From a virus, in IMG/VR virus record IMGVR_UViG_3300046011_004498, positions 1-64,000 of that record: a stretch of DNA of 64,000 nucleotides; one strand, written 5' to 3'. Position 1 is the first letter of the stretch. Each line of letters opens with the position of its first letter. Below, one piece after another: positions 17,719 through 38,649 of this stretch. The notes under the pieces were generated by a model. The model did not search any database, was not told the DNA's origin, and saw only the letters and a list, made by a program, of their open reading frames with translations. A program made the position numbers and the translations under genes.

Positions 17719-17727
17719 GGCTTTAAG

Positions 17728-19956
17728 ATGGGATTGTTTAGTTCTCGAAAAAAGACTTACGTCTCATCGGTAGTGTACAATCTGGCCGGTCCTGTAGAGG
17801 ATCGGCCAGACTATCTCAAAAGCATTATGCTCGGGAGTCTTCTGACTCAGAAACAGTTTAACCCCGGTGAAGCGATTCGTGAGGGTTATAAAACTGGTGT
17901 TGGGTTACGTCTGCGTAGTTACCATCGCTGGGCTAGAACCAACTATAAACAGGTCGGTATCTCCACAGACAGGTTCTATGGGAAGCCTGAGTTTGATCCT
18001 GCTTCAGTAGCAGCAGCAATGCTGGCTGACTTCGAGATTGATGCTGAGATTGATTGGATCGATAGTGGTTCAGCTGAAATTGAAATGTGGGGTCGTCAGT
18101 GGATGAGGGAAAATCTCCCTCTGAAAGAACCAACTGACACTTGGAGAGTAGATTACGTTGAAGCTACTGGAGACGGTCTCATCGTTTTTGACGATGGCAC
18201 TCCTAATGTTCTGTTCACACCAACAGGTTACAGAGGCACAGGAGATTATCTCTATGTCGCTTATAGCCGTATCCTGACAATAAACAGAAGAACCAGTCCT
18301 CAACTGTTTATCTACCGTAGAGGTTCTGGCTCCTTAGCTTTAGATGCCCTGTTTTTGCTTGGAGCAACAACAGGTGAGTATCTTCCTCAGATTCCTCTTA
18401 GACATGAGAATCGGTTTCTGTCGGAAAGCTACAAACCTGAGGTCTATGCTGAAGCAAAGAAAGCATACAAAAAAGCTTCAGGACAGAAGTATGATGAACT
18501 GATCAGCAAGATTGAGGAAAACCCTGATCTTGAAGACATCGACTTTGCCTACATATTCTTTGGTGTATCATTAAACACCGTGGATATGTCTTCACGTCGG
18601 TACATGTTTAGATACTTCAAGCATTTACTCGATAATCAGACAGTAAGCTCAAGTGCTTATGATGCTTGGCTCGCAAATCAAACAGATTTGAATGCTGATA
18701 TAAACTCATGGACTGATTGGTATGGTGACCAACTGGTCTTTGATCCGGGATTACCTACTGTGGGTACTCAGCCCGTACGACCTGTTGTGGCTGCTGCTCC
18801 AGAAAACTATGTAATCATTGAGGATAAAGGACCGGGTAAAACTAATCTCAAGATCGAGATTAGCTGGAAAAGTATGACTCTTTCTACTGGGTCTGGTCTT
18901 GGCCGTCCTGAAGCCGTCAGAGGGGATGTTTGGTTCACCTTTGTCGGTAATGAAACAATTGTAGCTAGTGCATACACAACTGATGAAGTTGAGAATCTTA
19001 CTATAGATACAATTGAAGCTTGGCACCAAGTATCAGATACTTCTTATGAGAAGATTGTCATTAAGGGTATGGTTCATAAGAATCACATTTACAATGGTAA
19101 GTCAGTTACCATTACAGCAGCACAAGCTTTGCTGGATGAAAGTGATTCTGAATTCCTTATTCCAATTCGATATGACACCTTCAGAGAGATGTCATTAGTA
19201 GACTCAACACAAATGAGCACACAGTGTGTGAACATTGTGTTTAATTGCTATCAAATTGTAAAGAAGCCTTGGTATGCGAGAGGATGGTTTAAGGTATTTG
19301 TGTTTGTTGCTGTAGTGGTTCTTACCATTTTATATCCTCCTGCTGGTGCAGCCGCAGGTGCTGCAACAACAGTAGGTACTGCTGCGGTTACTATTATCAC
19401 ACTTAATGTGATTATTAACGCAATCATCAGCGTAGTGGTCAATATGATCCTCAGTATGCTGCTGATGAAGATATTTACACACCTTGCTGTACAGGCTTTT
19501 GGTGAGAAAGTTGGTCAGATTGTTGCTGCTCTTGCTATGTTCATTACAATGAACGTTGGTAACGCAATGGCATCTGGACAATCTTTAGCATCATCATTCT
19601 CAAATCTGATGTCTGCTTCAAACCTGTTAGCAATGACCAATGCTGTGGGTAATGCTTATGCTTCTATGGTGAATGTTGACACCATGGAGATGTTTAAGAA
19701 GACACAAGAACTCATTGATAAATACCGCCAAGAGTCCTTGGAATTACAGGAACGGTATGCAGATCAATTTGGATATGGTACGGCACTGTTTAATCCAATG
19801 GCGCTGACTGAGGCTGCACAAAGCTTTTTCACAGAACCATCAGAGACATTCTTGTCTCGTACTTTATTGACAGGATCGGAGATTGCAGAGATGAGCAATA
19901 ATCTGATTACAAACTTCGCGGAGCTTACGCTTCGCAATCCGTATAGCGAGGATTAA
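17728..19956 (+). CDS. large virion protein with hydrophobic core (742 aa), N4 gp53 position
   Basis: The start MGLFSSRKKTYVSSVVYNLAGPVEDRPDYLK resembles a virion protein found in many unrelated phages, whose function is unknown to me. Residues about 505-600 are very hydrophobic (VFVFVAVVVLTILYPPAGAAAGAATTVGTAAVTIITLNVIINAIISVVVNMILSMLLMK), with several potential membrane spans. The C-terminus is amphipathic. Such a layout suggests an internal protein that enters the host membrane during DNA ejection; this is inference. Confidence 0.65.
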   Translation: MGLFSSRKKTYVSSVVYNLAGPVEDRPDYLKSIMLGSLLTQKQFNPGEAIREGYKTGVGLRLRSYHRWARTNYKQVGISTDRFYGKPEFDPASVAAAMLADFEIDAEIDWIDSGSAEIEMWGRQWMRENLPLKEPTDTWRVDYVEATGDGLIVFDDGTPNVLFTPTGYRGTGDYLYVAYSRILTINRRTSPQLFIYRRGSGSLALDALFLLGATTGEYLPQIPLRHENRFLSESYKPEVYAEAKKAYKKASGQKYDELISKIEENPDLEDIDFAYIFFGVSLNTVDMSSRRYMFRYFKHLLDNQTVSSSAYDAWLANQTDLNADINSWTDWYGDQLVFDPGLPTVGTQPVRPVVAAAPENYVIIEDKGPGKTNLKIEISWKSMTLSTGSGLGRPEAVRGDVWFTFVGNETIVASAYTTDEVENLTIDTIEAWHQVSDTSYEKIVIKGMVHKNHIYNGKSVTITAAQALLDESDSEFLIPIRYDTFREMSLVDSTQMSTQCVNIVFNCYQIVKKPWYARGWFKVFVFVAVVVLTILYPPAGAAAGAATTVGTAAVTIITLNVIINAIISVVVNMILSMLLMKIFTHLAVQAFGEKVGQIVAALAMFITMNVGNAMASGQSLASSFSNLMSASNLLAMTNAVGNAYASMVNVDTMEMFKKTQELIDKYRQESLELQERYADQFGYGTALFNPMALTEAAQSFFTEPSETFLSRTLLTGSEIAEMSNNLITNFAELTLRNPYSED

Positions 19957-19958: not shown

Positions 19959-20507
19959 ATGAACGGCTGGCAAGGTTTATTCTCCGTACCCAGTGCTCCT
20001 CCTATTGGCTCACTCGGTAACATCAATACAGGTCCGGGTGGTTGGCCGGGAGCTTACGCTGGAAATATTCCAGGACTTAGAAGTGCTCAGCCTTTTAGTA
20101 ATTATGGGCCTGTACCAGCTGATCTGAACACCGGACTTGGTTTTGGTCCTCCTCCGTCTGCATCCGATATGTCAGCAAATGCTGCATTTGGTAATGGTAA
20201 CGGAATGAATAGAGGTTGGTTTGGAGTTGATGGATTAGGAAAGAATCTTGGTACTCTCCAACTTGGTATTGGGACTCTTGCTGCTGGTGCTAATATTTGG
20301 AATAGTCTCCAACAAAATAAACTAGCTAAAGCTAGTTTTAATCATCAAAAAGGTCTGCTTGATACCAATCTTGCAAACCAAATTAAAGCATTTAACCTTC
20401 AGCTTGATGATAAGCTTCGCTCTCGTCAGGTAGTTGAGGGCACCTCTGATGCTTCTAGAGAAGAAGCACGTAAGAGGTGGGAAGCTCGTGACGAACGTAG
20501 AGGATAA
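19959..20507 (+). CDS. Gly/Pro-rich virion protein (182 aa), N4 gp52 position
   Basis: The N-terminal two thirds are Gly, Pro and Asn rich and probably disordered (PSAPPIGSLGNINTGPGGWPGAYAGN). The C-terminal third is basic and helical (NHQKGLLDTNLANQIKAFNLQLDDKLRSRQVVEG). It starts two bases after the previous stop and ends six bases before the next start. It has no recognised domain and is probably structural or an ejection partner of its neighbours. Confidence 0.6.
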   Translation: MNGWQGLFSVPSAPPIGSLGNINTGPGGWPGAYAGNIPGLRSAQPFSNYGPVPADLNTGLGFGPPPSASDMSANAAFGNGNGMNRGWFGVDGLGKNLGTLQLGIGTLAAGANIWNSLQQNKLAKASFNHQKGLLDTNLANQIKAFNLQLDDKLRSRQVVEGTSDASREEARKRWEARDERRG

Positions 20508-20513: not shown

Positions 20514-22733
20514 ATGGCTCGTATTGAATGGCAACCTCTGGCGATCCCTGACATTGGGGAATCAGCCCTTAGAGCTCAGTCTGCTGCTGGCGCTTCTGTA
20601 CGTAGCGCGTTCCAAGACCTGTCTGGTGTGGTTGATCAATGGAAAGGTCAACGTAGAGAAGAAAACCTTACTGAGCTTTATCGTCGTCAAAATAGATTTG
20701 CCTTAGGCGCTGTCGGTCCTGACGGTAAACCTACAGGTATGCCTGACGTTGCAGGATACGTCGGTGATCTTGCTGACGGTGATCTGATGGGTGATCTCAG
20801 CTACTTAACAGCTGCTGATATAGCAAATGCTCGGGACTACTTAGGAACACTGCGTAGTGGTAGAGCAGCTGAGACGGCTTATGCTGACGGTAGGGTAGAT
20901 CGTACATTTACTCTTGATGAAAGAACTCGTGAAGCAGCAGATCGTGAGGCTGGTATTGCCGTTCAGCGTGGTCTTTATGATTTAGCAACTCAATTAGAAA
21001 CGGGTCAGATTACACGAGAAGTGTATGATGAAAGAGCTGCGCCCTTACTAAGACAAGCCAGAACAGCTGCTCAAATTGAAAATATTAGTGGTACAAGAAG
21101 CAGATCAATAGCAGCTGCACAGGCACAGTATACTTGGGATAGAAGTGTTCTTGAGGATACTCAGAATGACCGAGTTCAAGCTATTCTGAACCAAATTACG
21201 ACGAATAATGTTGATCAGTTTGGTGCTCTTACTCAGTTAAACAGAGACTTTAGCAATGAAGATGCTAAAGTTATTAATGCTGTAAGAAGTGCTATTCCGG
21301 GTGCATTTGATGTTCTTAACTCTGCTTTAGATGAACAAACTCTTCCGGGTACACCGGGAGCACCTAGTGCTCCTGGTTCCTTTGCTGGAACTCCTAGTGG
21401 AGGTGTTTATGATACTGTTCTTGGTAATGGACAGTTTGGGCAACCTCCAAAACCAATCAGTGAAATGACAGTTGCTGAGGCAATTTCCTTTGGTCGAAAT
21501 GTGTTAATTCCTAACACAAGAGGAAATCGTCAACTTGGTTTACCGCCTACACTTGGTTCATCCGCTGTTGGTGCATATCAGTTTACTCAAGAAACTTTAG
21601 CCGATTTTGCACCTCGTGTTCTTGGTCCTAATTGGGCCAGTGAAGTTATGTCTGGAGAGAACCAAGAGAAGTTAGCTCAAGCTATTTTCCAGAGCACTAG
21701 AGGTCAGCCTTCTGCATTAAGAGCACGTTGGCAGGGTCTTCAGAATATGTCTGATAGTGACCTTCGTGCTCTTGGTTCTATGCCGTGGGAACAAGCAAGA
21801 AATGAAATTGTAAAAGTTGAAACTGGCGGTCAACTTCCCGGTCCCACCAATCCTTCACTTGTAAGAACAACTCAAGGAAACTTACAAAGAGGTGTAAATG
21901 TTGGTACAGATACTGGTGCTGGTGGTCGTAATACTACTTTAGCTGCTGGTTATCTTGCTGCTACAAGACTTCCAACAGACACTGATGCACAGGCTGTGGC
22001 TTTAGAGCTTGTTGGTGAAGGAAGTCCTTTTGCAGGACAACAAACACATCGTTTAAGAGAAGATGTTCAGAATTTAATGAACCAAGCAAATGTCACAGCA
22101 CCTGTTGCGGCATGGGCTTTACGTTCAACTGCAAGAAATCGTGGATTAGGGGAAAGATTCTGGTCATTTGCAGAAGGCAATAGAGGTGCATCTGCTCCTA
22201 ATCGTGAAGCAGCTCTTGTTCTCATTCGTCGTGTTCAAAACGGTGATATGCAGGGTCAAGTTGAAGTAGTTAGCAGAAGTCAGGAACTTCAAACCAACTT
22301 AGCTGCGGCTCAAGCAGAAGAAGCACGAGCAAGAGCAGTTTATACAAGAATGACTCAAGCCCAAGCAGCAGGTAATGGTAGAGCAGATATTTCGAGATAT
22401 GCTCAAGCTGTTGAAGTAGCTGCTGCAAGAGTAGCTGCCATAAGAGCACAAGCTAATGATCCTACAATTAGTAGGACTAATGGTCAGGCTGGTTCCTACT
22501 TAAATGATTGGAGTACAGTTGGTGCTAGAGATGGAAGTCTTGTTAATAGGTTTTTAGGCGGTAACGTAGTAAGTGATCTGGTTAGACAACCTACTAGAAG
22601 TCAAGTTGTTCAAAGAGGAAGTGCTCCAAGGTTTGTAGGAGGTCAGTTAGTGAGGGGGGCACAACCTGCCCCAGCACCTACTAGAACCAGAACACCTCCT
22701 AGATTTACCCAGCGTCCTAGAGAGCCGAGATAA
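20514..22733 (+). CDS. virion protein with lysozyme-like domain (739 aa), N4 gp51 position
   Basis: A segment around residues 320-430 (VAEAISFGRNVLIPNTRGNRQLG...SSAVGAYQFTQETLADFAPRVLGPNW) has the GAYQF signature of lysozyme or lytic-transglycosylase-like domains carried in phage virions, which open peptidoglycan during DNA entry. The N-terminal 280 residues are helical; the C-terminal part is Ala/Arg-rich coiled coil followed by a basic Pro/Arg tail. It directly precedes the vRNAP gene, and both may be ejected into the cell. Confidence 0.65.
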   Translation: MARIEWQPLAIPDIGESALRAQSAAGASVRSAFQDLSGVVDQWKGQRREENLTELYRRQNRFALGAVGPDGKPTGMPDVAGYVGDLADGDLMGDLSYLTAADIANARDYLGTLRSGRAAETAYADGRVDRTFTLDERTREAADREAGIAVQRGLYDLATQLETGQITREVYDERAAPLLRQARTAAQIENISGTRSRSIAAAQAQYTWDRSVLEDTQNDRVQAILNQITTNNVDQFGALTQLNRDFSNEDAKVINAVRSAIPGAFDVLNSALDEQTLPGTPGAPSAPGSFAGTPSGGVYDTVLGNGQFGQPPKPISEMTVAEAISFGRNVLIPNTRGNRQLGLPPTLGSSAVGAYQFTQETLADFAPRVLGPNWASEVMSGENQEKLAQAIFQSTRGQPSALRARWQGLQNMSDSDLRALGSMPWEQARNEIVKVETGGQLPGPTNPSLVRTTQGNLQRGVNVGTDTGAGGRNTTLAAGYLAATRLPTDTDAQAVALELVGEGSPFAGQQTHRLREDVQNLMNQANVTAPVAAWALRSTARNRGLGERFWSFAEGNRGASAPNREAALVLIRRVQNGDMQGQVEVVSRSQELQTNLAAAQAEEARARAVYTRMTQAQAAGNGRADISRYAQAVEVAAARVAAIRAQANDPTISRTNGQAGSYLNDWSTVGARDGSLVNRFLGGNVVSDLVRQPTRSQVVQRGSAPRFVGGQLVRGAQPAPAPTRTRTPPRFTQRPREPR

Positions 22734-22748: not shown

Positions 22749-22780
22749 AGCTCCTCACATATTGTGGGGAGCTTTTTTTC
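22749..22780 (+). terminator. terminator between the lysozyme-like gene and vRNAP
   Basis: AGCTCCTCACA-tat-TGTGGGGAGCT has one mismatch and is followed by a 6-7 T run. An in-frame GTG at 22764 lies in this hairpin and is not a plausible start for the vRNAP gene. Confidence 0.85.
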
Positions 22781-22826: not shown

Positions 22827-25800
22827 ATGTCGAACGAACGTTTCCTTTCAGCAGTTCCTCAAGAAGCTGTAGAACCTGACTATTATAATGTAGGTGCTGC
22901 AAGATACCGAGGTAATGGATCGTTAGTTCCGAACGAACGCTTCCAAGATGCCCGCACAATGAATGCGGATGAGTTGGTAGCAAAATACGGCGAAGAGCAG
23001 GGCTTACAAATTCTTCGAGCTCGTGCAGGTGGGGATGCCTCTTTTCACGGAGATTTAGCATCTACTCGTTCAGGTCTTGCCCCTATAACAGATACAGCAG
23101 GTAGTGCTGCTACTGCTCTGTTTGGTGGATTAGGTGGTATTGCTGCTCTCGGTACTGGTCTTGTTAATCAAGATGCAGGTGTTGGTTTAGCAGACATCGT
23201 AAATGAAAATAGTGCTTGGGCCAGAGAGAACCAATCCTATGCTTTGAATGCACGACGTAGAGCGTCAGCTGCACAAGCAAATGTTAGTTCTGCTGATAAC
23301 CAAGCACGTTATGAACAAGAGCGAGAAGATGGTGAGGGTTTAGCCACTATCAGACGTATTGGTCGTAACTTTGTTGATCAATCTGCCATTACTGTCAGCG
23401 ATGGAATGCTGGTAACAGACAGTGTTGCTCAGGGCGTTGGTTCACTTGCTGGTGGTGGTGTAGTTTCCGGTGGCTTGAAAGCAATTGGTAGACAAGCTCT
23501 TACACGTTTTGGAGCTGGTCGTTCTGCTGCTGTAGCTATTGCTCAGCCTCGTGTTTACGATGCAGCTGTCGCTACTGGTCGAGTTCTCGACCGTAGTCGT
23601 ATGTCTTTAGCTATTGGTGCGCTTGAGGGTGGTGGTGCTTACACAGGCACAATCGATCAAGTGATGGCAATGTCTCATGATGAGCTTCTTGAAAGCTCTC
23701 AGATGTACAGAGAGCTTATTGATGCTGGTATCAATCCAGCCAGAGCAAAAGCTAGAGTTGCTAATAGAGCCGGTCAGATAGCTGCTGCAATCCAAGCACC
23801 TATCGGTGTAGCAACTGGTGCTTTAGTATCTAAGTTTGAAGCCAATCCTTTACGTGCTGGCTCATTCTTAACTGGTGCTTCTAACGTTCTTAAAGAGACA
23901 GTTGAAGAAGGTATTCAATCTGGTTCAGGCCAGTTTGCCCAAAACGTTGGTATTAGGTCTGCGGCAGATAATGAATATAACTTAAGCCAAGGTGTCGGTG
24001 AAGCTTCTGCTGAAGGAGCTATCGCTGGTGCTGGTACAGCAGGTGTGTTTGCTGGTCCTTCGGCAGTTATGGGTACAACAAGAGATTTAGCCCAAGGTGC
24101 TGCTGATTTAACTAGAAGACAGATTGATTCTCTTATTAATAAAGGAAGAGAAGAAAACAATCGTAATAGTGTTGATGCTCAAGCAGAGATTTCAAACGTT
24201 GTTAGAGCTGCTGTAGCTCCTAAAGTTTATGTTCCTACACAAACTGAAGGCATTGATCCTATCGATGATGAAGCTGAATTTACTACATACCAGAATGACT
24301 TAGCTGCTTTGGGTCAGCAGTTTGGGTTTGATCCTCAAACTTATGAACCAAAGACAGAAGCTGAAGCACGTCTGTTAGGTAGTATTCCTGCCGAGGAAGC
24401 TTCCAACATTATTGATGTGATGCAAGCAGCTGCCAATAGAATGGCAGAGCAAGATGCTACACCTGAAGAACGTCTTGAACTGGCTCTGTTTATTCATGAA
24501 CAACAGAACAGAATTACACCTGAGAATCTTGAAGCTGTCAGAGCATTACAGGCTAAAGTAACACCCGGTGGTGCTATTGCTAATGATCTGAAAACAATCA
24601 TTACTGCTCAAGCAGCTATTACAGACAACATCCTTTTCAAGGATAGTCTTGAAGCTGCGCTGAAATCTGTACCTCCGATAAAGGTTGAAGATGTTGAAGA
24701 TATTTCGACGCCGGAAGGTCAAAGGGCTGCAAGGACGGGTGCCCTTCAAACTATGCTCTTCCCGGAGACCGTACCCCAAGAAGTTCTCGACAGACTGTTC
24801 AAACACTCTGAGAATGACGATGCAGGCGAAATCTTTACGCCGCAGCAAAAGGTCGCTCTTCGTACCGAAGCTATGCTCTCAAAGACGCTCCAAGCGTCCA
24901 CAGCTGCCGCTGAAGTCTTGGGTGTTAAGCCTCCCGAAGCATCTCGTGTAGCCTTTGAAATCCAGTCTGCTGATGCTCAGGAAGCTGGCTCAGCAGGGCC
25001 ATCTGTTCGTGCTCACACAGAAGGTGTGAACAGACTGAAGGCCATGGGTGACACTGCTGGTGCAGCTGAAATGCTGGCTGAGTTTGGTAACTTTGCTCAG
25101 CACATGGCTAACAAATTAGCTGCTGTGAATGAGTCGTTCGTTGGTCGTACTGAAAAGAACTATAATCCTGAAGTTTTTTATCAAGCCTACAATAGAAAAA
25201 CTAAGGAATGGTACACACCCAAAAAGGGTTGGACTGTTGCTCGTTTTGGTAAGAATCTGAAGTCAATTGTGGATTCTCAGCAGATTGGTATCGATGCTGA
25301 GTACACTATTGATTCGTATAACCAGTTAGTTGCAGAAAATCCTGAACTTGGTCTTAAGCCTGTTGAAGCTATCCGTATGGATTCTGGGCTTAAAAAGATT
25401 GCTGATCAGGTGTTCAAAGATGCTAAGAAAGCAGACTTTGATGAAAAGAATCCTGATATTGTAGCTAAACGTAGTGAATCTACTACAATTGAAACAAAAC
25501 AACAAAATAATACAACAGATACTAAATCAACTGAAAAGAAAGTTGAACCTGTTGTAGAGCCAGATATCAAACCTTCTGTTGTTGTTGATGATCTTAAGAA
25601 TGAATCTATTCCTACTCTCGTTGCACTTCTGAAAGAAGTACAAGAACTTAAGGATGAAGTTAAGTTTGAACGAGTTGCATCTGAACTTCGTGTTCGTAAA
25701 CTTGAAGCTGAAGCAGCAAAAAATGCTGCTCAAGTTCAAGCAGCTGAAGTAGTCGCAGAACCGAAGGCGGAGCCGGAGGTTCAAGCGACGGAAGAAGCTG

Positions 25801-28800
25801 CGCCTGTTGAAAAGAAAACTACTTCTATCAAAGAAGAGTTTCCTGATCTGATCCAATCTACATCTGGAGAGAACCTGCTTCTTGATGGCTTCTCCCTAGA
25901 TGGGGAAAGTCAGACTCGTTTGGTTGGTGAAGGTGCTATTGCATTAGAAGATGTCATAGCAGCGGTAACCAATTCAGATGCTTTTGCAGAGATTACTGAA
26001 GAGCCTGAAGCAAAGCTTTCTGGTGATGTCACTCGTGCGTACAGCAAAGTTATGGGTGCTATTCGCCTCCCAATTTACACCCGGTTAATGGCTAGGTTTG
26101 CTGGAAGACGACTGAAAAAGAACGAGAAAATCTTTACGCCTGTTATGGATGGCAGAACGCCTTTGGATAAGAGTGATCCTCTTGGGATTGCCAACACCGA
26201 AGCACGCCTGCTCAGCTTGATGGAACGTAAAGAAGACGGTTCTCTGAACTATAACGACAAGATTCTGACAGCAGGCTTACTGGCCTTAGCCGATTGGTTG
26301 GCTCAGAACAGTGTAACTTCGCCTCATAGAGATGCCGACAGTGTTGCAAGATCACTTAATCTTACTCGTCAACCTATGTTGGTTGATGAGGAACTGGTGA
26401 ATGCATTTAATAAAGGTACTAATATTACGATAGCACAACGTTCATTAGCTAATAAGATTGAAAGATATCTTGGTCTTAAAGCAAATGCAGACGTTCCTAT
26501 TGGTCTTTCTCATGGTGTGACCTTAGGCTTTGCTGCTGAACTTCTTCGTGCAGCTGTTGAAGCAAAGTTTGTTCAGACTGAATCTGTTTATAAGTCTGAT
26601 GAGTTTAACTTTGTGTTTGTTAACGTGAACACAGATGAATTAGGTCTTGCTAAGTATGGGCAAGAAGGACCTAACTTTAAGGGTCAAACCAGACTCATTG
26701 AACGTATCGTCACAAATGATGAGAGAGCGGTTGGGTTTGCTCTGAAGCCTTCCGGTTTTGCTAAGAAAAAACAGAAGGGTGGTAATGCTGTTACGACGCC
26801 CGAGCAGATGGATACAGAGGTTCGTGAAAACGCTGTAGGTCACGGACTGAACATGCCTGTGTACGAGCGTTACGCACGCCTTGGTCCTGATGGTATGCTG
26901 CGCCTGTTTGGTAATGGTGTGCTGCCGCCTACCATGAACAAGAACACAAGGCTGTCCAAAGAGAGCCAGAATACTTCTGTGAAGGGAGCCTTCCAGACGA
27001 TCTTAGGTCTGATTGATCAGATGCAGACGGCTGTTAGTACAGCTACTTCTGCCGCTGAACTTAAAGATATTCGTGTGTATTATGAGTACATCTTTACCTC
27101 TGTAAATCGTATGCAGCAGCAAGCTGCTTACGGGAACCAATCATCTAAGATGGTTCGAGAGGTTCTGACTCCTAACGGTAACGTTGTAGACTTATCTTCT
27201 ACAGACACTGCTGATTATCAAATGTGGCGTAGAGGTCTGGCTCAGGCTTTAGGTATTAAAGTTGAACTCCAGTTTGATAGTGTCTGGGATGCTAACTTAG
27301 AGAAAATCTTGCAAAGCGAAGAAACACAGAAAGCTGTTTCTATGCTTCAAAACTATACCAATGTTGAGCCAAATGCTCTCATTGATGCTGTGAAGGATGT
27401 ATTCCGCAATAAGAATAACCCTCTAATTGATCCTGAAGTTCCTGAAGTAGGGTTCCATGCTTTAGTATCTTACGCCGATTATCTGACAGCTAAAGCGAAC
27501 GGAACAGCATCTGCCTTTACCACTCACATCTATGTGGAAGCAGACGGTAAAGTGGACGGTGCCACTAACTCGCTGTTCTATATGAGACTGGGTGGTTTTG
27601 ATCTTGAGATGATTGAAGCCCTGACAAGAGGTGGTTTCGACTTCAGCAAGACACCTATCTCATTGGCTCAAACCTATGAGCCTAATGCAGAGGGTGTTGT
27701 TCCCGGAGATGCATATCAAGTCAGTGGTGTTCGCACTGGTGTCTATATGCAGGAGACAATCCAGAATGTGATTTCCAAGGCTAATGATTCTGCTCAAAAG
27801 TCTAAGCTTATCAATCAAGTTGAGGCAATGAACATCGTCATGACAACGCTGCTTGGCTCTAAGGAGTTCAGGTATAAGCGAGATGGTGAGCAGTGGAATT
27901 TCGAGATCGGTCGTGGGCAGCTGAAAAACCCCATGACAATTACTGTCTATGGTTCAGGTGTTAAGGGCATTGCTGACAAAGTAGCCAAAGAGCTGGCTGG
28001 TAAATTGTATGAAGAAATTTCCAGAGCCAATGCATTAGCTGTTCAGAATAAACAGCCCGATAACTGGGCTACTTTCATGTTCTATGATGGTGGTAAATTT
28101 ACAGAAAGTGCCACTAAATCTGTGACATTCTGGAAAGCTCTTGATGTTCTGACTTCTGCAAGTGTTCGTAGTTTCACCGACGATGGTGGTCAGCAGAAAT
28201 ATTATACCAAGAAAATGGATGAAGCCCGTGCTCCGGGAACTTCAACATCTGCTGTTCAGTACACACTGAAAGCTCAAACTTTAGAACTGTTGTCTGATAC
28301 AATTAGACAGTTCTACGTAAGGCCAATGGTTGATGCTATCAACAAGGAGATGGGTTCATCTATTGATGGTTCTAAGTTGATTCAAGAATCAACAAACTTA
28401 CTGTCCTCGTTAGCTAGAGCAGCATTTGATCGACTCATCGCAGTTGAGATGCAGAAGATCAAAAACAAGAGCGATGGTCTGTCTCCTAACCAGATCAAAA
28501 CCATCATGTCTAAGGTAGCTTTCCTGCTTCCTTACATTGAAGGTGATGAGATCAATATCAACGTTAAGGGACTGGAGATGTCCCCAATTAACGTAATTGA
28601 TCCTAAGACAGGTAAACCAAGCAGAATTCCATACGCATCGACCATGAATGGTCCTATTTTCACGCAGTTGGAAATTCCTACACCGCAGATCGCAGGTGTG
28701 GCTGGTGGTTCATATCTGAACATTGCTTATGGTGATGGTCGTATGATCATCAAGGCTTCCCCCGGTCTGATCGGTGGTCGTCTTATGATCTTCGACGGTA

Positions 28801-31800
28801 TCAATCTGTCGATTAAAGATGCGATTGCAAATGGTGTAGCTATTAACAAAACTACGCTTGATGCCATTCAGTCTGGGACACCGTTCTCTGACTTGATGAA
28901 AACGTTCAAAGAACTTACTGAATCATTCAACTTAAGTGTCTTTACTGAAGAAGAATTGAACAGTGTTGTTGAAAATAACACTGCTGATGAATACAATTTA
29001 CCTGATGAACTGACACCTTCTGATTTTGTTGAAGGTCTTATCTTTAGTCTGACAAACAGACTTGATCTTGCATCTAAGCAAGAGCGAGCTCGTCAGGCTA
29101 CGTTGAAGCGTGTTCACCTGTCTTCAGACCACATGGCAGCAATCAATGCTCCTGCGTCTACGGCTGCTGACAATAGCCGTGAAGACCTTGGTGCTTTGAC
29201 TCCTGAAGAGAAGGCAAAACGTCTGAATGAAATCTACGAGGAAGAGCTCGCTAAGATTGAGAATGCACCTGTAGTCAAAGACAACACTTCTGAGAACATC
29301 AGTAGTGCTTTCGACAACTTGCCTAAGCATGAGACTGGAGTTCGTATTACGAACACAGCTCAGCTTACTGAACAATTGAGCAGCCTTAATCTTCCTAGAG
29401 AGCAAGCTACACTCATCAATCGTGCTTTGATCGCTCTGAAGAATGATAACTGGACGGTCGTTATTGGTTCCAAGAGAGCAGCTACAGATTACCTTACAAC
29501 AAGAGGTATCCGTCACACCTTCAAGAAGGGTGACAATGGTATTGCTGCTCCGGGTCAGAAACTGATTGTGGTGGCTAATGGTTCGTCTGAGACTTTGGCT
29601 CACGAGCTTATCCATGCTGCGACCTTTGATAAGGTAGATGCATTCTTCAGTAACCCTGAAGTGCTGGAACCAGCTGTAAGAGCTGCTTTAGAACGTCTGG
29701 TTATTCTACAAAATGAATGGCTTAGTGCCACTTACTTACGCAAAGTGAACGGACCTGACGACACTGTGCTTCATGCAAGAGCAGCTATTGAAGGCTTCTT
29801 GAGAAAGGGAGATCAGTCGTCTGCTTTGAATGAATTCATGGCATGGAACTTGGCTAACCAAGGTCTGATGAATCTGAACTCTAAGATCAAAGTTGAAAGC
29901 AAGCTGGCTCGTATCACCAGAGAGATGGTTTCTCTGCTTAAGCGTATGTTCTCTCTGCCTGACAATAATGATCGTATGGATTGGAACATTCGTTTCAACT
30001 CCTTGATTGTTATTGGCAGCAAGCCACTTACACCCACCCTTCAAGCAGCTAATCGAATTCTTCAGCACTCTACTGGGACTCGTCCTGATCTGGATGACAT
30101 CGCTCAGAAGATGGCTAAACTTGTTGGTCGTGCTGATATCAATCCTGAGCTTATGAAAAAGCTCAAGATTAAACCTAGTGAAATGGCCTTAGCTTATGGT
30201 GAAAATGCAGCCATTATTGCTAAAGCTAATGGCTTTGACATGAGTAACGAAGAACAACGTGCTTTCGTTATGATGGTTGCTGCTTATCATGCGAACCAAA
30301 TTGCTGATCCCACCTTCAACGTTAAAATGAATAACTACTACAGCGAAGTGCTGGAGCAGTTAGACCAAAACGTTATGATGATGGACAGGGATTCTAAAGA
30401 CCCAGCAGAAGCTGCACGCGCTGATATGCGTTACGATATCCTGCGTGGTAAGTTCGATATGGGAGTCGATATGCTTGCTGTGTTTGTGGCCTTAGGCGCT
30501 ACAAACGAGATTGCTCAAACGCTCTTCAGTCGTATTCGCGTCAGAGACAAAAAGCTGTCCTTACAAGGTAACACTGTTGACAGTGTGCTGCGTAAGGATG
30601 GCGCAGCCCTGATCGATAAGCTGATGGATAACTCCTACAGCCTTCGTCCAAATCAGAAGATTGGTGATGAAGTTCTTAAGCTGGCTGTAGCTATGGTTGA
30701 GAAATCTGATCGTGAGCAAGGACTTCTGAACAAAGCTTTCGGTGAAACTGGTAACTTTGTTCGCAAGGCTAACGACAAGCTGGCGGACACCATTTCCTAC
30801 GGCTTAGGGAAGACTGCTGACGCGATCCAACAAGGAATCGATGCCTCGAAGGGTACATCCTTAGAGGGCGTTGTAGGACCCCTTGGAGACGTTCTGAAGC
30901 TGGGTGTCGAAGTCATGGATAAAGCTAGAACGCAGGATGCTGTGTCTAAGCTGACTTCCATGCTTAACAGCAATGATATTCATCCTGAAATCAGAAGCAT
31001 CATTGTAGAACTTATGGGTTCTAATGAAGATAACCAGACTATCTTTGAGCTGATCAAAAAGGGTCGAATGGTTATCGATAAAGTTCGTCAGGCATTCTTG
31101 AAGGGTATGCCTAAGCAAATCAAAGATAAGTTTACCAGAACTCTGACTAAAGAAGAGTGGGCTGCTCAGCACTTTGCTTATGGTCAATCTGACATCTCTG
31201 TTCTGTTGGATCAGAAGATGTCTATTGAAGGTATCATTGATCTGTTTGCTACACCGTCTTCTATTCCTCAGCTTCTGTCTCAGAAGGAAGCTGAAGTTAA
31301 GAGACTGTTTGGTAATCAAGCTAACACTATCCTGAAGGAATCGTATGATCTTGCACAAATGATGGATCGTGGTCGTCCTTCAAATGGATTGGTTAAGCGT
31401 AATGCTCTGGCAATTGCTAACCGCGCAGGTGAAGCGACAGTTGGTACATTTGACATTCTGAGCCCAGAAACCAAGGCAATCGACGGATATGTGTCCTTGT
31501 TGGTTCTGTCTCGTATGCAACCAGATATGATGAACACACTCAGCACTTTAGCTAAGACTGAGCGTGTTGGTATGGAGTATGCATTAGCTCTGGTGGCTCA
31601 AGCTCGCGCACATGAGATGAAGCGTGTTCCTGAGCGTCATAAGTACAATATCAACAAGGGCTATATGCCCACTGAAAAGCTTGGTTCGTTTAAGGCTGTG
31701 CCTTACGATAAAGTTAATGAGTATACCAAGGTTGGGTATAAGATTGTTGGTAGTAGAACTATTGGTGCTGTCGAAGGTCTGTATGATAATGGAAAACAAC

Positions 31801-33401
31801 GTGTTTATGTTGCTACTGATTTAACAGCTCCTGCTGTTAAACAAGGTATCATGCGTACCATTCGTCCTACTGTGTTTGGTTTAGATATTTCTAGCGGTGC
31901 TTCGTATGACAACCCGTCTGCTGGATTGATTACTGACATTACTGCTGTGAGACAAATCACTAAAGCTCTTCAAAAGAAGAGTGATAATGATAAGCTTCTT
32001 TCTCCTCTTTATAATAAAGATGGTGAAATCTATGCTTATGAGAGATTAGTTGATATAGCTGATGTCGAACACAATCTTGAAACTCAACAGAATGTAGCTG
32101 TGTCTGTCGGTATGTGGATGGGTCGTCAACATGAAGAAATTCAAGCACGCATCATTAATGATGTGCTGATTGAGCGTATGGCTAAAATGTATGAGACAGC
32201 GGGTCGTCGTGCACAGACTGACGAGTTTGTTGATCTGAAAGAATTAGCTGCAACTGATCCTGTAATTGCTGATGCTATGTCCTTGATCAATGATCAGGAT
32301 ATGAGGGAAATCTACGCCCGTATGGGCGGTAAGTTCATGGTCAGAAAAGACCTGTACAATAACATTATTGGTTTCCGAACCATGAGCATTGGTGATCTCT
32401 GGACGGGTAACACCACTCTTGAGAAGAATAATAGAGAAGCAGCAGCTAACTTCCTTACAGGTATCTTAGGTCCTGAAGCTTACCGTCGTTTAACTGTCGG
32501 TGAACAAGCTTGGGAAAACCTGATGGGAGATGCACGTACTGCTATCGTTATCAAATCTATGTTGGTTCCAGCATTGAATGCTGCGGCTAACTTCTTTCAG
32601 CTTATGGCTAACGGCATTGGTCCTATTCAGATCGCCATGAAGACGACTGAAATGCTCAGAGAGACTCATTTCTATGCACAAAAGCAGTTAGAGCTTCAGA
32701 GCTTAGAAGTGGATTTGGCTAGAGCACGAGGAGCCAAGCGTCCAGATGAGGTTCGTATTCTGGAAACCAAGATGCGTGTCATTGAAGATATCATCAAGCG
32801 TCTGGCTATCTATCCTCTGATCCAAGCAGGTGAGTTTAACCAGATTACCGAGGGTCTTACTCAAGATGATCTGGAAATGACTAAAGGACGTATGTGGGAT
32901 CGTGTTAGTAAATGGGCTGACAAACTTCCGCCTGCTGTGAAAACTGCTGGACGTTATGCTGTAGTGGCTAAAGATACTGCTCTGTTTGATGGTCTTACAA
33001 GAACTGTTGCCTATACAGACTTTGTTGCTAAGGCAGTTCTCTATGATCATCTGACAAGAGTTGTTAAAAAGACCAAAGCAGAAGCCTTGCTGGCTATTAC
33101 CAACGAGTTTGTAAACTATGACTTACTTGCAGGTAGAGGTCGCACAAAAGCTGAAGCTCTTGGTTTAGTTTGGTTCCCTTCCTTCAAGATTCGTTCGATT
33201 AAAGTTGCTGCTAGTTTGATTAGAAACAACCCGCTTCATACGTTCTTGAGTTCACTGGTTCCGGGTTCTTACGAAGCTGGTACAGTCATGGATGATAATG
33301 GGGTCAATCTCATTCTCGATGGTCGTGCAGATAATGCATTTGGTATCTGGAATGCATGGAGAGGTGCTGCACTTCTTCCTGTTGCTCAGGTAATTAACTA
33401 A
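22827..33401 (+). CDS. giant virion RNA polymerase, N4 gp50-like, with zincin-like domain (3524 aa)
   Basis: All four single-subunit RNA polymerase motifs are present in order. T/DxxGR appears as TSVNR (residues 1424-1428) and motif A as VDGATNS (D1577). Motif B is R1696-x3-K1700-x7-Y1708-G, nearly the T7 pattern, and motif C is IFDGIN (D1990). Length and motif placement agree with the 3500-aa N4 vRNAP, which is packaged and injected to transcribe early genes. The N-terminal 1000 residues are Ala-rich and helical. HELIH at 2259-2263 suggests a zinc metallopeptidase fold after the polymerase. The C-terminal 1000 residues are helical and unassigned. ATG 22827 is chosen because upstream in-frame starts lie in a terminator. 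Confidence 0.9.
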   Translation: MSNERFLSAVPQEAVEPDYYNVGAARYRGNGSLVPNERFQDARTMNADELVAKYGEEQGLQILRARAGGDASFHGDLASTRSGLAPITDTAGSAATALFGGLGGIAALGTGLVNQDAGVGLADIVNENSAWARENQSYALNARRRASAAQANVSSADNQARYEQEREDGEGLATIRRIGRNFVDQSAITVSDGMLVTDSVAQGVGSLAGGGVVSGGLKAIGRQALTRFGAGRSAAVAIAQPRVYDAAVATGRVLDRSRMSLAIGALEGGGAYTGTIDQVMAMSHDELLESSQMYRELIDAGINPARAKARVANRAGQIAAAIQAPIGVATGALVSKFEANPLRAGSFLTGASNVLKETVEEGIQSGSGQFAQNVGIRSAADNEYNLSQGVGEASAEGAIAGAGTAGVFAGPSAVMGTTRDLAQGAADLTRRQIDSLINKGREENNRNSVDAQAEISNVVRAAVAPKVYVPTQTEGIDPIDDEAEFTTYQNDLAALGQQFGFDPQTYEPKTEAEARLLGSIPAEEASNIIDVMQAAANRMAEQDATPEERLELALFIHEQQNRITPENLEAVRALQAKVTPGGAIANDLKTIITAQAAITDNILFKDSLEAALKSVPPIKVEDVEDISTPEGQRAARTGALQTMLFPETVPQEVLDRLFKHSENDDAGEIFTPQQKVALRTEAMLSKTLQASTAAAEVLGVKPPEASRVAFEIQSADAQEAGSAGPSVRAHTEGVNRLKAMGDTAGAAEMLAEFGNFAQHMANKLAAVNESFVGRTEKNYNPEVFYQAYNRKTKEWYTPKKGWTVARFGKNLKSIVDSQQIGIDAEYTIDSYNQLVAENPELGLKPVEAIRMDSGLKKIADQVFKDAKKADFDEKNPDIVAKRSESTTIETKQQNNTTDTKSTEKKVEPVVEPDIKPSVVVDDLKNESIPTLVALLKEVQELKDEVKFERVASELRVRKLEAEAAKNAAQVQAAEVVAEPKAEPEVQATEEAAPVEKKTTSIKEEFPDLIQSTSGENLLLDGFSLDGESQTRLVGEGAIALEDVIAAVTNSDAFAEITEEPEAKLSGDVTRAYSKVMGAIRLPIYTRLMARFAGRRLKKNEKIFTPVMDGRTPLDKSDPLGIANTEARLLSLMERKEDGSLNYNDKILTAGLLALADWLAQNSVTSPHRDADSVARSLNLTRQPMLVDEELVNAFNKGTNITIAQRSLANKIERYLGLKANADVPIGLSHGVTLGFAAELLRAAVEAKFVQTESVYKSDEFNFVFVNVNTDELGLAKYGQEGPNFKGQTRLIERIVTNDERAVGFALKPSGFAKKKQKGGNAVTTPEQMDTEVRENAVGHGLNMPVYERYARLGPDGMLRLFGNGVLPPTMNKNTRLSKESQNTSVKGAFQTILGLIDQMQTAVSTATSAAELKDIRVYYEYIFTSVNRMQQQAAYGNQSSKMVREVLTPNGNVVDLSSTDTADYQMWRRGLAQALGIKVELQFDSVWDANLEKILQSEETQKAVSMLQNYTNVEPNALIDAVKDVFRNKNNPLIDPEVPEVGFHALVSYADYLTAKANGTASAFTTHIYVEADGKVDGATNSLFYMRLGGFDLEMIEALTRGGFDFSKTPISLAQTYEPNAEGVVPGDAYQVSGVRTGVYMQETIQNVISKANDSAQKSKLINQVEAMNIVMTTLLGSKEFRYKRDGEQWNFEIGRGQLKNPMTITVYGSGVKGIADKVAKELAGKLYEEISRANALAVQNKQPDNWATFMFYDGGKFTESATKSVTFWKALDVLTSASVRSFTDDGGQQKYYTKKMDEARAPGTSTSAVQYTLKAQTLELLSDTIRQFYVRPMVDAINKEMGSSIDGSKLIQESTNLLSSLARAAFDRLIAVEMQKIKNKSDGLSPNQIKTIMSKVAFLLPYIEGDEININVKGLEMSPINVIDPKTGKPSRIPYASTMNGPIFTQLEIPTPQIAGVAGGSYLNIAYGDGRMIIKASPGLIGGRLMIFDGINLSIKDAIANGVAINKTTLDAIQSGTPFSDLMKTFKELTESFNLSVFTEEELNSVVENNTADEYNLPDELTPSDFVEGLIFSLTNRLDLASKQERARQATLKRVHLSSDHMAAINAPASTAADNSREDLGALTPEEKAKRLNEIYEEELAKIENAPVVKDNTSENISSAFDNLPKHETGVRITNTAQLTEQLSSLNLPREQATLINRALIALKNDNWTVVIGSKRAATDYLTTRGIRHTFKKGDNGIAAPGQKLIVVANGSSETLAHELIHAATFDKVDAFFSNPEVLEPAVRAALERLVILQNEWLSATYLRKVNGPDDTVLHARAAIEGFLRKGDQSSALNEFMAWNLANQGLMNLNSKIKVESKLARITREMVSLLKRMFSLPDNNDRMDWNIRFNSLIVIGSKPLTPTLQAANRILQHSTGTRPDLDDIAQKMAKLVGRADINPELMKKLKIKPSEMALAYGENAAIIAKANGFDMSNEEQRAFVMMVAAYHANQIADPTFNVKMNNYYSEVLEQLDQNVMMMDRDSKDPAEAARADMRYDILRGKFDMGVDMLAVFVALGATNEIAQTLFSRIRVRDKKLSLQGNTVDSVLRKDGAALIDKLMDNSYSLRPNQKIGDEVLKLAVAMVEKSDREQGLLNKAFGETGNFVRKANDKLADTISYGLGKTADAIQQGIDASKGTSLEGVVGPLGDVLKLGVEVMDKARTQDAVSKLTSMLNSNDIHPEIRSIIVELMGSNEDNQTIFELIKKGRMVIDKVRQAFLKGMPKQIKDKFTRTLTKEEWAAQHFAYGQSDISVLLDQKMSIEGIIDLFATPSSIPQLLSQKEAEVKRLFGNQANTILKESYDLAQMMDRGRPSNGLVKRNALAIANRAGEATVGTFDILSPETKAIDGYVSLLVLSRMQPDMMNTLSTLAKTERVGMEYALALVAQARAHEMKRVPERHKYNINKGYMPTEKLGSFKAVPYDKVNEYTKVGYKIVGSRTIGAVEGLYDNGKQRVYVATDLTAPAVKQGIMRTIRPTVFGLDISSGASYDNPSAGLITDITAVRQITKALQKKSDNDKLLSPLYNKDGEIYAYERLVDIADVEHNLETQQNVAVSVGMWMGRQHEEIQARIINDVLIERMAKMYETAGRRAQTDEFVDLKELAATDPVIADAMSLINDQDMREIYARMGGKFMVRKDLYNNIIGFRTMSIGDLWTGNTTLEKNNREAAANFLTGILGPEAYRRLTVGEQAWENLMGDARTAIVIKSMLVPALNAAANFFQLMANGIGPIQIAMKTTEMLRETHFYAQKQLELQSLEVDLARARGAKRPDEVRILETKMRVIEDIIKRLAIYPLIQAGEFNQITEGLTQDDLEMTKGRMWDRVSKWADKLPPAVKTAGRYAVVAKDTALFDGLTRTVAYTDFVAKAVLYDHLTRVVKKTKAEALLAITNEFVNYDLLAGRGRTKAEALGLVWFPSFKIRSIKVAASLIRNNPLHTFLSSLVPGSYEAGTVMDDNGVNLILDGRADNAFGIWNAWRGAALLPVAQVIN

Positions 33402-33411: not shown

Positions 33412-33440
33412 AAAGGCCCCTCATTAAGAGGGGCCTTTTT
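33412..33440. terminator. bidirectional terminator after vRNAP
   Basis: AAAGGCCCCTC-attaa-GAGGGGCCTTT with A and T runs on either side works in both directions. It ends the vRNAP transcript and also the converging minus-strand gene at 33439-33897. Confidence 0.9.
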
Positions 33441-33897
33441 AATCTATGTAATAGGTTACCAATTTTTTGTTTTTCTTTGTTTTAATTGGATGTCCTAACT
33501 TCTTAAGTTCGGAAACAATGATGTAAAGTCTTCGTTGAGTTGTGGTTACTTTTTGAAAATCTGTAGCTTTTAATCCACCATTACGCATAGCTGTAAGCAC
33601 TTTATCCTTAACAGGATTAGCCCTAGTAGGGGGAGGTCGATCTCCGGGCTTAGTGGGTGGCAGCTTAAGAAGACGGTCAATGCCTTGTTGAGTAATAGTA
33701 AAGACTGCTTCTTTCTTGTTTTCTTGGGTTAATGTAGCTAAGCCCATGGCTATATTTAAAGAGTTAGCAACACGAACAGAGGTCGGTTTGTTGTTTAGCA
33801 AAGCAGCTAATTCTTCATTGGTTCTAGGACCAACGGCGTACAGCATCATTAAAATACGATTATGCAGAAGATATAGGTTGGTCGTTGGATGCTTCAT
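33439..33897 (-). CDS. putative winged-helix DNA-binding regulator (152 aa)
   Basis: The region LYLLHNRILMMLYAVGPRTNEELAALLNNKPTSVRVANSLNIAMGLATLTQENKKEAVFTITQQGIDRLL has the order helix, helix-turn-helix, beta wing seen in MarR-like winged helices. The C-terminal half (VKDKVLTAMRNGGLKATDFQKVTTTQRRLYIIVSELKKLGHPIKTKKNKKLV) may be a second such domain. It is the only minus-strand gene between vRNAP and the fibre genes and is divergent from 33989. ATG at 33897 is chosen; longer frames overlap the divergent gene. Possible late-gene regulator, by inference. Confidence 0.6.
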   Translation of the reverse strand: MKHPTTNLYLLHNRILMMLYAVGPRTNEELAALLNNKPTSVRVANSLNIAMGLATLTQENKKEAVFTITQQGIDRLLKLPPTKPGDRPPPTRANPVKDKVLTAMRNGGLKATDFQKVTTTQRRLYIIVSELKKLGHPIKTKKNKKLVTYYID

Positions 33898-33988
33898 TAC
33901 GTTGACTTTCAGTCGAATATGCTTTGTATACGTGAACACTTTGAGCGTCACATTGGAGGGGTCTGTGCCCACACCATATCTTAAGGAA

Positions 33989-34333
33989 ATGGCACTCATT
34001 TCTCGTAACAATGAAGCTATTTCCAAAGTAATTTTGCTTACAAAGCTGGTAGATGGTGTTCGTGTTCCTGTTGATTTGAACGGTAGAACCTTCTTCTCAC
34101 AAGCAAGATACGGTAAAAACACCCTGAGTGATCTGATCTGCAACATTAACGTTGCTATCTATGGTGATCCTCTTGATGGAAAGATTCTCCTTTCAGTAGA
34201 TGAAAACGTAATGTTGAATCTTAGTCCGCTGAAAGGACATTACGATATCGTTACTCGGACTGGTTCTGGTCCTAGAGACAACATTTTTGTAGCCCCCTTC
34301 ATTGTTGAAGGTGGGGTCAGCAATTGGGATTAA
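33989..34333 (+). CDS. small structural protein upstream of fibre (114 aa)
   Basis: A beta-rich small protein (MALISRNNEAISKVILLTKLVDGVRVPVDLNGRTFFSQ...PRDNIFVAPFIVEGG) preceded by TAAGGAA. It stands directly before a coiled-coil fibre gene, as the 46634-46972 protein does before the second fibre. Proteins of this type are usually fibre adaptors or baseplate-like beta domains. A longer frame starting at 33716 runs through the opposite-strand regulator and was not used. Confidence 0.55.
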   Translation: MALISRNNEAISKVILLTKLVDGVRVPVDLNGRTFFSQARYGKNTLSDLICNINVAIYGDPLDGKILLSVDENVMLNLSPLKGHYDIVTRTGSGPRDNIFVAPFIVEGGVSNWD

Positions 34334-34339
34334 GTTGAT

Positions 34340-36295
34340 ATGGCTGAAGAGATTGAAGTTGTCTTTCTGAATGAAGGACTTCCCGGCCCTCAAGGCTACG
34401 CAGCTGAAGATGTACTTGAAGCTGGCGCTGAACAGGTTGCTGCTATCAACGCACTGGCTGCCAGCAAGACAGCTTTGCTGAACAGCACAGCTACTAACGC
34501 TATTGTAGATTTTAACAGTCAAGCTGACATTAAGATCGAAGACCTCAATGCAATGTCGTTGGCTCTTGAAACAGCCATCAATGATGCAAATGATACTATT
34601 GCAGCTGCACAGAGTGTTGTTGATGATGCAGCAGCTCAAGTTGTCTTGGCCGAAGCTCAGGTAGCTTTAGCTGAAGATCAGGTTGCCTTAGCAGCTGCAC
34701 AAGTTGTTCTAGCTGAAGCTCAAAATGCGTTGGCAACTGCCAGCAGAATTCTTGCAGAAACAGCCAGAGATGCGGCTATCTCAGCTTATAACTCTGCTCA
34801 ATTAGCCAGCTTAACTTCAGGATATTATCCTGATAGCCGTTCCTTGCTTCCTCGTGGTGTAGCTTTTGGTGCTGTAACGGGAGGTTCTGGTTATACTAAC
34901 GGCGGTCCTTATGATCTCCAGTGGTCTGGCGGTAACATGGAAGCTACGCCTACAGGAACCTTTATGGTTTCTGGTGGAGCTATCAGTTCTGTTACGATGA
35001 CCTCACCGGGTCGTAAGATTGGTACAGCTGCACATACTCTGCCTACTGCTTCGTTCGCAGCTGCTGGCGGTGGTACTGGTGGTGCATTGGCTCTGACCAG
35101 TGTTTCGTTGATTGCTTCAGGTCAATACTACTGGACAGATCACGCAACTGATTCCAGCTTAATGATTCTCTACAGCAATGTTCCTGTCTCTGGTGTGCCT
35201 ACAGCAACATCACAGCTGACAACACTTTCCAAGACAGGCTCTGCCAGTCTGATTGCTCTGACCACCCCAACAGGTACTGCAAATGCTTTAGTAAGCAGTG
35301 CATCAGTAGGTACTCCTGTTGTCTCTGGTGGTGACAATCAGCTTATCCTTCTGCCTATTGTTACGACAAATACGGGTGCTGTAACTCTTACAGTTCCGGG
35401 TATTGGTGGGGGTATCGCTCGTCCTATTAGAGCTACTTCTGGTATGTCTCTTCTGGCAAACTCCCTTATTGGTGGGCAGTTTGCTCTGTTAAAATATGTC
35501 ACTGCAGCTGGTGTGTATTTCCTGATCTATCCGAATAACTTGAGCCAAAATGGTAGGTTTGCTCATGTATTTAGAACAGTTGCTACAACTACTAATGCTA
35601 TTGTTACACAAACCCAGTATCAAAACCTTTTAGCGTACAACATCAATGATTTGTACATGTGTCCTATGGCTGAGGCTAACACCTCAGGTACAGTGACAAT
35701 GGCTATTGATGGTGTTGGTTCTATACCTTTGATGAGTGCTACAGCCGATCTCTTGCCTGTTCCGGCTTGGGGTGCAAATAGCACTATCTTCTTCCGTTAT
35801 AGACCAGACATTAATAAGTTTATTCTGGCTTTTACTAACTATACAGTTAGCCCTAGTGATCCAATCTTACCTGCGAAAACGCCGTCTTATCATGTAGTAG
35901 GAACTACAGTTGATGGTGATGGTTCTGACAATAAACTGCTTGTTACTCCGTTAACGCCTCTGCCAAACAATACGTTTGCAGATACTCAACTTCATGTTCG
36001 TTTCCCATCTGATCGACCTGCTGAAGGCGGAATGTTGATCAAGATTGTTGGGTTCAATGATGCTGAGTATTATCAACTGAGAGACAGTAATGCGGTTGAT
36101 CAAGTAGCTGCTAATCGTTGGAAAGCAGGAGACACTGGAGTAATCGCTCGTGATCCTGTTACTACGTACATGTATTTGGTTCGGGTTGATCTTAGAACAC
36201 CGGCTGAAGTGGTAGAAACAGTATCTACAAGCATCACTGAATTCTACACTTCTATGAATAGCCGCATTTATATGCTTTCGAGCTTTGGTAAGTAA
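34340..36295 (+). CDS. tail fibre/appendage protein with coiled coil (651 aa)
   Basis: Residues about 40-160 hold a heptad-like Ala/Glu/Val repeat (QVVLAEAQVALAEDQVALAAAQVVLAEAQ), a trimeric coiled-coil shaft. The remaining 480 residues are Gly/Thr/Ser-rich and beta-predicted (TPTGTFMVSGGAISSVTMTSPG), as in receptor-binding fibres. It is six bases after the small adaptor-like gene and ten before the next gene. Likely host-recognition protein. Confidence 0.7.
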   Translation: MAEEIEVVFLNEGLPGPQGYAAEDVLEAGAEQVAAINALAASKTALLNSTATNAIVDFNSQADIKIEDLNAMSLALETAINDANDTIAAAQSVVDDAAAQVVLAEAQVALAEDQVALAAAQVVLAEAQNALATASRILAETARDAAISAYNSAQLASLTSGYYPDSRSLLPRGVAFGAVTGGSGYTNGGPYDLQWSGGNMEATPTGTFMVSGGAISSVTMTSPGRKIGTAAHTLPTASFAAAGGGTGGALALTSVSLIASGQYYWTDHATDSSLMILYSNVPVSGVPTATSQLTTLSKTGSASLIALTTPTGTANALVSSASVGTPVVSGGDNQLILLPIVTTNTGAVTLTVPGIGGGIARPIRATSGMSLLANSLIGGQFALLKYVTAAGVYFLIYPNNLSQNGRFAHVFRTVATTTNAIVTQTQYQNLLAYNINDLYMCPMAEANTSGTVTMAIDGVGSIPLMSATADLLPVPAWGANSTIFFRYRPDINKFILAFTNYTVSPSDPILPAKTPSYHVVGTTVDGDGSDNKLLVTPLTPLPNNTFADTQLHVRFPSDRPAEGGMLIKIVGFNDAEYYQLRDSNAVDQVAANRWKAGDTGVIARDPVTTYMYLVRVDLRTPAEVVETVSTSITEFYTSMNSRIYMLSSFGK

Positions 36296-36304
36296 GGAAA
36301 AGAC

Positions 36305-37369: not shown

Positions 37370-37398
37370 CCTCTGTAAGAATCTAATACAGATAAAGA

Positions 37399-37428
37399 GA
37401 AGGCCCTCTGATAGCTCAGAGGGCCTTC
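37399..37428. terminator. bidirectional terminator between converging genes
   Basis: GAAGGCCCTCTGA-tagc-TCAGAGGGCCTTC is a 13-bp perfect stem between the plus-strand appendage genes and the minus-strand replication module. Confidence 0.85.
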
Positions 37429-37430
37429 TT

Positions 37431-38473: not shown

Positions 38474-38495
38474 GAGGTAACTCCTTCAAAAGAAA

Positions 38496-38519
38496 AGGCC
38501 CTAGGTAAACCTAGAGCCT
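38496..38519 (-). terminator. terminator upstream of the MNIF-type gene
   Basis: AGGCCCTAGGT pairs with ACCTAGAGCCT with one mismatch. On the minus strand it is followed by TTTTCTTTTG. It would separate the 39174-38501 genes from the 38473-37431 genes. Confidence 0.65.
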
Positions 38520-38641: not shown

Positions 38642-38649
38642 TGCTGGGG

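Follow-up and report, generated by a model that had tools for sequence, protein, structure and literature searches.

A complete and divergent N4-type virion RNA polymerase in an uncultivated phage genome with candidate early promoter hairpins

The window analyzed here covers bases 1-64000 of a virus record that is 72,847 bases long and in which no exact terminal repeat was found; a second contig of 24 kb is near-identical to it, agreeing at 18,245 of the 18,249 bases compared. The plus strand carries, in the order of phage N4 and as recognized by tblastn, homologs of gp69, gp68, gp67, gp61, gp60, gp59 and gp57-gp50. Positions 10820-19956 (+) hold the gp59-gp53 homologs, namely the portal, gp58, gp57, the major head protein, gp55, gp54 and gp53, of which gp58 was recognized through a shared family (PHROG 2346). 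These are followed by two ejection protein genes, a gp52 homolog of 182 aa (19959-20507, +; tblastn 49% over 85 aa) and a gp51 homolog of 739 aa (20514-22733, +; tblastn E 2e-25), the latter assigned to PHROG 6126, which also contains N4 gp51. Neither protein has a cysteine. The structural block ends directly beyond them with the gene of interest, the virion RNA polymerase (vRNAP) gene and homolog of N4 gp50 (22827-33401, +; 3524 aa). A collinearity of ten genes with N4 gp59-gp50, proposed in a preliminary description of this DNA, therefore holds, nine of the genes being recovered by tblastn and gp58 through PHROG 2346.

The minus strand encodes, in order, homologs of gp45, gp44, gp33, gp25, gp24, gp16 and gp15 (tblastn). 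N4-type RNAPII genes lie apart from the structural block, with a T7-like RNAPII encoded at 65452-67923 of the record. A gp2 homolog occupies 33-477 (-) and matches PHROG 4099 (E 1.4e-11), the same family that N4 gp2 matches; in N4, gp2 is a cofactor of RNAPII. Four tRNA genes (Met, Thr, Arg and Leu) are located at 4458-5131 (-), in the interval that separates the early hairpins described below from the late block at its terminase-side end. A tblastn search with the N4 proteins did not find gp62-gp66, which include the tail sheath/receptor-binding protein and the appendage. Downstream of the vRNAP gene, at 33439-39291, are ORFs of 651, 354, 235 and 216 aa without a PHROG or Pfam match, which may be tail or adsorption genes of the phage; gp62-gp66 may have been replaced by unassigned ORFs at 34340-37369 and by a tail-fibre-like ORF at 44808-46634.

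The vRNAP reading frame is open through all 3524 codons, at the extent and length initially given for it. A mechanical ORF call begins upstream of ATG 22827, at GTG 22764. This codon falls inside an intrinsic-terminator-like hairpin followed by a T run (22750-22779, +), read from the sequence between the gp51 homolog and the vRNAP gene; GTG 22764 was therefore rejected, and ATG 22827 is the likelier and preferred start.

Sequence comparison identifies the product as an N4-type vRNAP over its entire length. Enzymes of this giant type travel in the particles of N4-like phages and are injected into the bacterium, where they initiate transcription. Searched with phmmer against the PDB, it matches full-length N4 gp50 with 1162 bits over vRNAP residues 14-3518, and the family PHROG 2206, "virion RNA polymerase", matches with 1739 bits over residues 22-3523. 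The central domain matches the N4 mini-vRNAP (2PO4) far above chance (E 7e-73), and three Pfam domains specific to N4 vRNAPs (vRNAP_dom_2, N4_RNAP_helical and vRNAP_dom) all score above their cut-offs. The protein is nevertheless divergent, with an overall identity of 28% to N4 gp50 (tblastn). All relatives in named phages are less than 60% identical to it, the best reaching about 28% over the polymerase domain, and a DNA-level search of phages for the vRNAP gene gave no match. Among cultivated schitoviruses, the vRNAPs of Achromobacter phage Axy12, Pseudomonas phage inbricus and Delftia phage RG-2014 belong to the same family, share its motifs and are 27-28% identical over the polymerase domain. 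Besides the near-identical copy, the nearest vRNAP in viral contigs is 38-39% identical and comes from an uncultivated partial contig of 30 kb (L037; IMGVR_UViG_3300036944_000099).

The catalytic residues are intact. In an alignment of 63 homologous sequences, in which motif conservation was counted, R1428, E1571, D1573, G1574, R1696, K1700, Y1708, D1990 and G1991 are invariant (63/63). The roles of these residues have been described for N4 (PMC2784036, PMC4496689). The T/DxxGR element, TSVNR (residues 1424-1428; 27096-27110, +), aligns with N4 T420RVGR424, so that R1428 corresponds to N4 R424. Motif A, YVEADG (residues 1569-1574; 27531-27548, +), is identical in N4, with E1571 and D1573 corresponding to E557 and D559. 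Motif B consists of R1696, K1700 and Y1708-G (27912-27953, +), equivalent to N4 R666, K670 and Y678, and motif C, IFDG (residues 1988-1991; 28788-28799, +), lies within IFDGIN, which aligns with N4 IFDGMN and pairs D1990 with D951.

The preliminary description had located TSVNR at 1424, VDGATNS at 1576 with D1577, R1696/K1700/Y1708-G, and D1990 in IFDGIN correctly, and had rightly placed the N4 residues within about 45 positions of these. When numbered along gp50, the N4 counterparts are R1421, D1556, K1667, Y1675 and D1948, that is, 7, 17, 33, 33 and 42 residues earlier. It had, however, taken D1577 as the motif A aspartate. This residue pairs with N4 Asn563, and of the 63 homologs 51 have Asn at the position and only 12 have Asp; both the N4 alignment and the homolog alignment exclude it in favor of D1573, which must be the catalytic aspartate because YVEADG at 1569-1574 matches the N4 YVEADG that contains D559. 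Two supposed departures also turn out to be normal. The Asn at the Gly position of T/DxxGR is shared by 13 of the 63 homologs and is a family trait; the L037 vRNAP, for example, has SSVNR. Similarly, FDG in place of HD-[SA] is N4's own motif C and occurs in 60 of the 63 homologs, the remaining 3 having YDG.

The central RNA polymerase domain (residues 991-2140; 25797-29246, +) is supported by AlphaFold2, Foldseek, VIA-align and Pfam. An AlphaFold2 model of these residues, computed with a 63-row alignment, has a pLDDT of 88.6 and a pTM of 0.88. In Foldseek, ranks 1-10 are all N4 mini-vRNAP and gp50 entries (TM 0.81-0.85, E down to 3e-57; TM 0.85 to 3C3L), and T7 RNAP follows them. Superposition with VIA-align on 2PO4, the crystal structure of the N4 mini-vRNAP, gives Z 38.5 over 1035 residues at 3.7 A, compared with Z of about 15-22 for T7 and mitochondrial RNAPs and, for T7 RNAP, about 21 over about 510 residues. 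The palm and fingers fold, on whose presence the initial identification had been made to depend, is thus found in the predicted model, which superposes on the N4 mini-vRNAP. The right-hand fold with T/DxxGR and motifs A, B and C places the protein in the T7-like single-subunit RNAP superfamily, and the full-length homology to gp50, the catalytic set and the mini-vRNAP fold place it among the vRNAPs of the Schitoviridae. T7 RNAP, mitochondrial RNAP and N4 RNAPII have the palm/fingers fold and motifs A, B and C in common with it. However, T7-like RNAPs are only about 11% identical, are not virion enzymes and use double-stranded promoters.

Other properties of the protein are likewise those of its family. 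Its length falls in the size range of vRNAPs (about 3,400-3,900 aa), and it contains no cysteine in 3524 residues. Cysteine is also absent from N4 gp50, gp51 and gp52. Complete frames were available for 60 homologs in viral contigs; 45 of them lack cysteine even when residues before the start codon are counted, and 5 have one or two that are clearly within the gene, against an expectation of about 33 at a background rate of 0.94%. The lack of cysteine has been reported for the family and attributed to passage through the tail and the oxidizing periplasm (PMC2784036, PMC3715699, PMC3915230); it is confirmed here and is not a new trait. Past the polymerase domain, a zincin-type HExxH motif, HELIH (residues 2259-2263; 29601-29615, +), marks the start of the C-terminal region. 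N4 has the same motif at 2228 and Axy12 has it at 2152, and a zincin-like domain has been described for N4 (PMC5512222, PMC12633501), so this domain is not new either. The C-terminal helical region (residues 2831-3478; 31317-33260, +) is the better conserved part of the vRNAP, with tblastn matches at 20-39% identity in 460 phage records under an E limit of 1e-3, against 217 records at up to 28% for the polymerase domain under a stricter limit of 1e-5. In some Vibrio phages, the proteins matching the C-terminal region are annotated only as "coil containing protein".

The hairpins at which N4 vRNAP begins transcription have a loop of three bases closed by a C-G pair, and the first base of the RNA is G (PMC4496689). 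A rule derived from these features requires a stem of at least 5, the loop T[CT]C and a G at the ninth base past the loop. In the first 16 kb of N4 it finds exactly three sites, at 90, 557 and 4546, while the opposite strand gives no site, in agreement with the number and placing of the three mapped early promoters of N4. Applied to the genome under study, the same rule returns four hairpins on the minus strand, which is the early strand, compared with 0.15 expected by shuffling and at most 2 hairpins in 100 shuffles. Candidate promoter P1 (CGGCAC-TTC-GTGCCG) is located at 856-870 (-), and P2 (CGACAC-TTC-GTGTCG) at 516-530 (-), directly upstream of the gp2 homolog. An additional candidate (GACAC-TTC-GTGTC; 2744-2756, -) goes with an ORF of 91 aa whose ATG is at 2708. 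The last, P3, lies outside the window upstream of the gp15 homolog (record 67977-67963, -). All four have a TTC loop with its C-G closing pair, G at +1 and coding-strand T at -8, and P2 and P3 occupy the same places as the second and third sites of N4. A fifth hairpin, with a TAAC loop and a stem of 13 bp ahead of a series of T's, was taken for a terminator and left out, and a scan of all hairpins with 3-, 4- or 5-base loops that dispensed with the N4 rule produced too many sites to interpret. Between P3 and the gp15 homolog is a terminator-like hairpin, AGGGCCATTGTC-TTTT-GACAGTGGCCCT followed by TTTC (record 67937-67910, -, outside the window), which is possibly an attenuator.

In other phages, the strict T[CT]C rule finds few sites, and widening the loop to T.C or T..C resolved most phages that were poor in them. 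Over the early regions of 47 schitoviruses, the widened rule yields 79 early-strand hairpins, compared with 4 on the other strand and 2.2 expected; it finds none in OLIVR1, RpoP-V13, C121 and seven contigs. Loop type tends to stay constant within a lineage, with TCC or TTC in N4 and its close kin, TGC in Ebordelon and others, and TAC or four-base loops elsewhere.

Taken together, sequence, predicted fold, gene order and N4-type hairpins bear out the original identification of a virion RNA polymerase with complete catalytic motifs, and the annotation is settled. This uncultivated phage encodes a complete, divergent and otherwise ordinary schitovirus vRNAP, whose apparent oddities are normal in the family. 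Like N4 gp50 (PDB 2PO4, 3C3L, 9PNQ, 9PNT, 9PNR), it is homologous from end to end, of similar size and built around a central single-subunit RNAP domain, and the two share all catalytic residues, the FDG motif C, the HExxH region, a large helical C-terminus and the lack of cysteine. Both genes are the last of the structural block, and both genomes have hairpin promoters, here candidate ones, before gp2 and gp15. The differences from N4 are the low identity, TSVNR where N4 has TRVGR, Phe as the counterpart of Arg904, the lack of an aromatic residue at the Trp129 position, and promoter loops that are all TTC with T at -8, whereas those of N4 are TCC or TTC with C at -8.

The gene almost certainly encodes an N4-type vRNAP of a Schitoviridae phage. 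Homology, fold, intact motifs and synteny are those of such an enzyme, and hairpins of the right form occur on the right strand and in the right place; we infer from N4 that the protein is packaged and ejected, is active as a polymerase and pairs with these hairpins. By this analogy, the 3524-residue protein would be packaged in the particle, ejected along with the gp51 and gp52 homologs and would then transcribe the early region. Its binding sites would be short hairpins, extruded at promoters from the template strand, in which it would read bases of both the loop and the stem, and the RNA would start with G nine bases after the end of the loop. The predicted active site comprises R1428, E1571, D1573, R1696, K1700, Y1708 and D1990, of which D1573 and D1990 are the two catalytic aspartates, and the candidate promoters are 870-856, 530-516 and 2756-2744 in the window and 67977-67963 outside it.

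The N4 residues that contact the promoter (W129, R119, K267/K268 and R904) are absent from this protein, although the alignment is poor at some of them; W129, R119 and R904 are also missing in many relatives, with an uncertain alignment around 119 and 129. Their loss, and the better conservation of the C-terminal part (460 records, up to 39%) than of the polymerase domain (217, up to 28%), could suggest a vRNAP descendant that has lost polymerase activity and is retained solely for a structural or channel role after ejection. This is very improbable, given the intact and invariant catalytic residues, an open frame, a complete predicted fold and promoter-type hairpins at the expected sites. The replacement of W129 and R904 is also compatible with an active vRNAP that reads another DNA signal, and hairpins of one shape could serve as other regulatory sites, so that the four early-strand hairpins would not be its promoters. 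We regard this as unlikely, since a rule taken from N4 gives four sites where 0.15 would be expected, each of them on the early strand with G at +1, the placement upstream of gp2 and gp15 matches N4, and hairpins across the family are concentrated on the early strand (79 versus 4). The multisubunit vRNAP of phiKZ-like jumbo phages and the T7-type early polymerase are phage RNA polymerases as well, but the chance that the gene encodes either is negligible. The best sequence and fold matches are to N4 gp50 only, with T7 RNAP next at 11% identity, and separate T7-like RNAPII subunits are encoded elsewhere in the genome.

Enzyme and candidate promoters can be read together, both in this deeply divergent genome and in the 47 schitovirus early regions. 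In N4, Arg904 contacts promoter base -8, a base of the hairpin stem (PMC4496689); alignments put Phe1945, in the specificity loop, at this position (28659-28661, +). The coding-strand base at -8 is C in all 19 phages with Arg or Lys at the 904 position and G in all 4 with Glu (L103, L066, L041 and MN988517), one more Glu phage, with a single hairpin and A at -8, having been left out of the count. Phages with other residues at this position (A, S, T, Q or H) have C or G, and in the present genome Phe1945 goes with T at -8 in all four hairpins. T is the prevailing base at -8 in none of the other schitoviruses scanned. Placed on a tree, in which the branch of this phage is long and its placement unsure, the association amounts to only two independent contrasts and lacks significance when kinship is taken into account, so as a specificity code it is suggestive only. 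A tentative reading, which we consider somewhat more doubtful than probable, is that vRNAP specificity may be switched by a residue-base code (Arg/Lys with C, Glu with G and Phe1945 with T, or G, C and A on the template), with the loop shifting in parallel among TCC/TTC, TGC, TAC and four-base T..C forms; every lineage would then have a private early-promoter key. This code is the sole part of the analysis that would be new, and it stands as a correlation. If it holds experimentally, early promoters could be predicted by rule from the sequence of the polymerase, and a set of orthogonal single-stranded-DNA-dependent RNA polymerases would become available. Additionally, four-base promoter loops (TTAC, TTCC and TTGC) appear to replace three-base loops in some schitoviruses, as seen in KX098391 (93 and 533), MN988517 (2795) and KM879221 (132).
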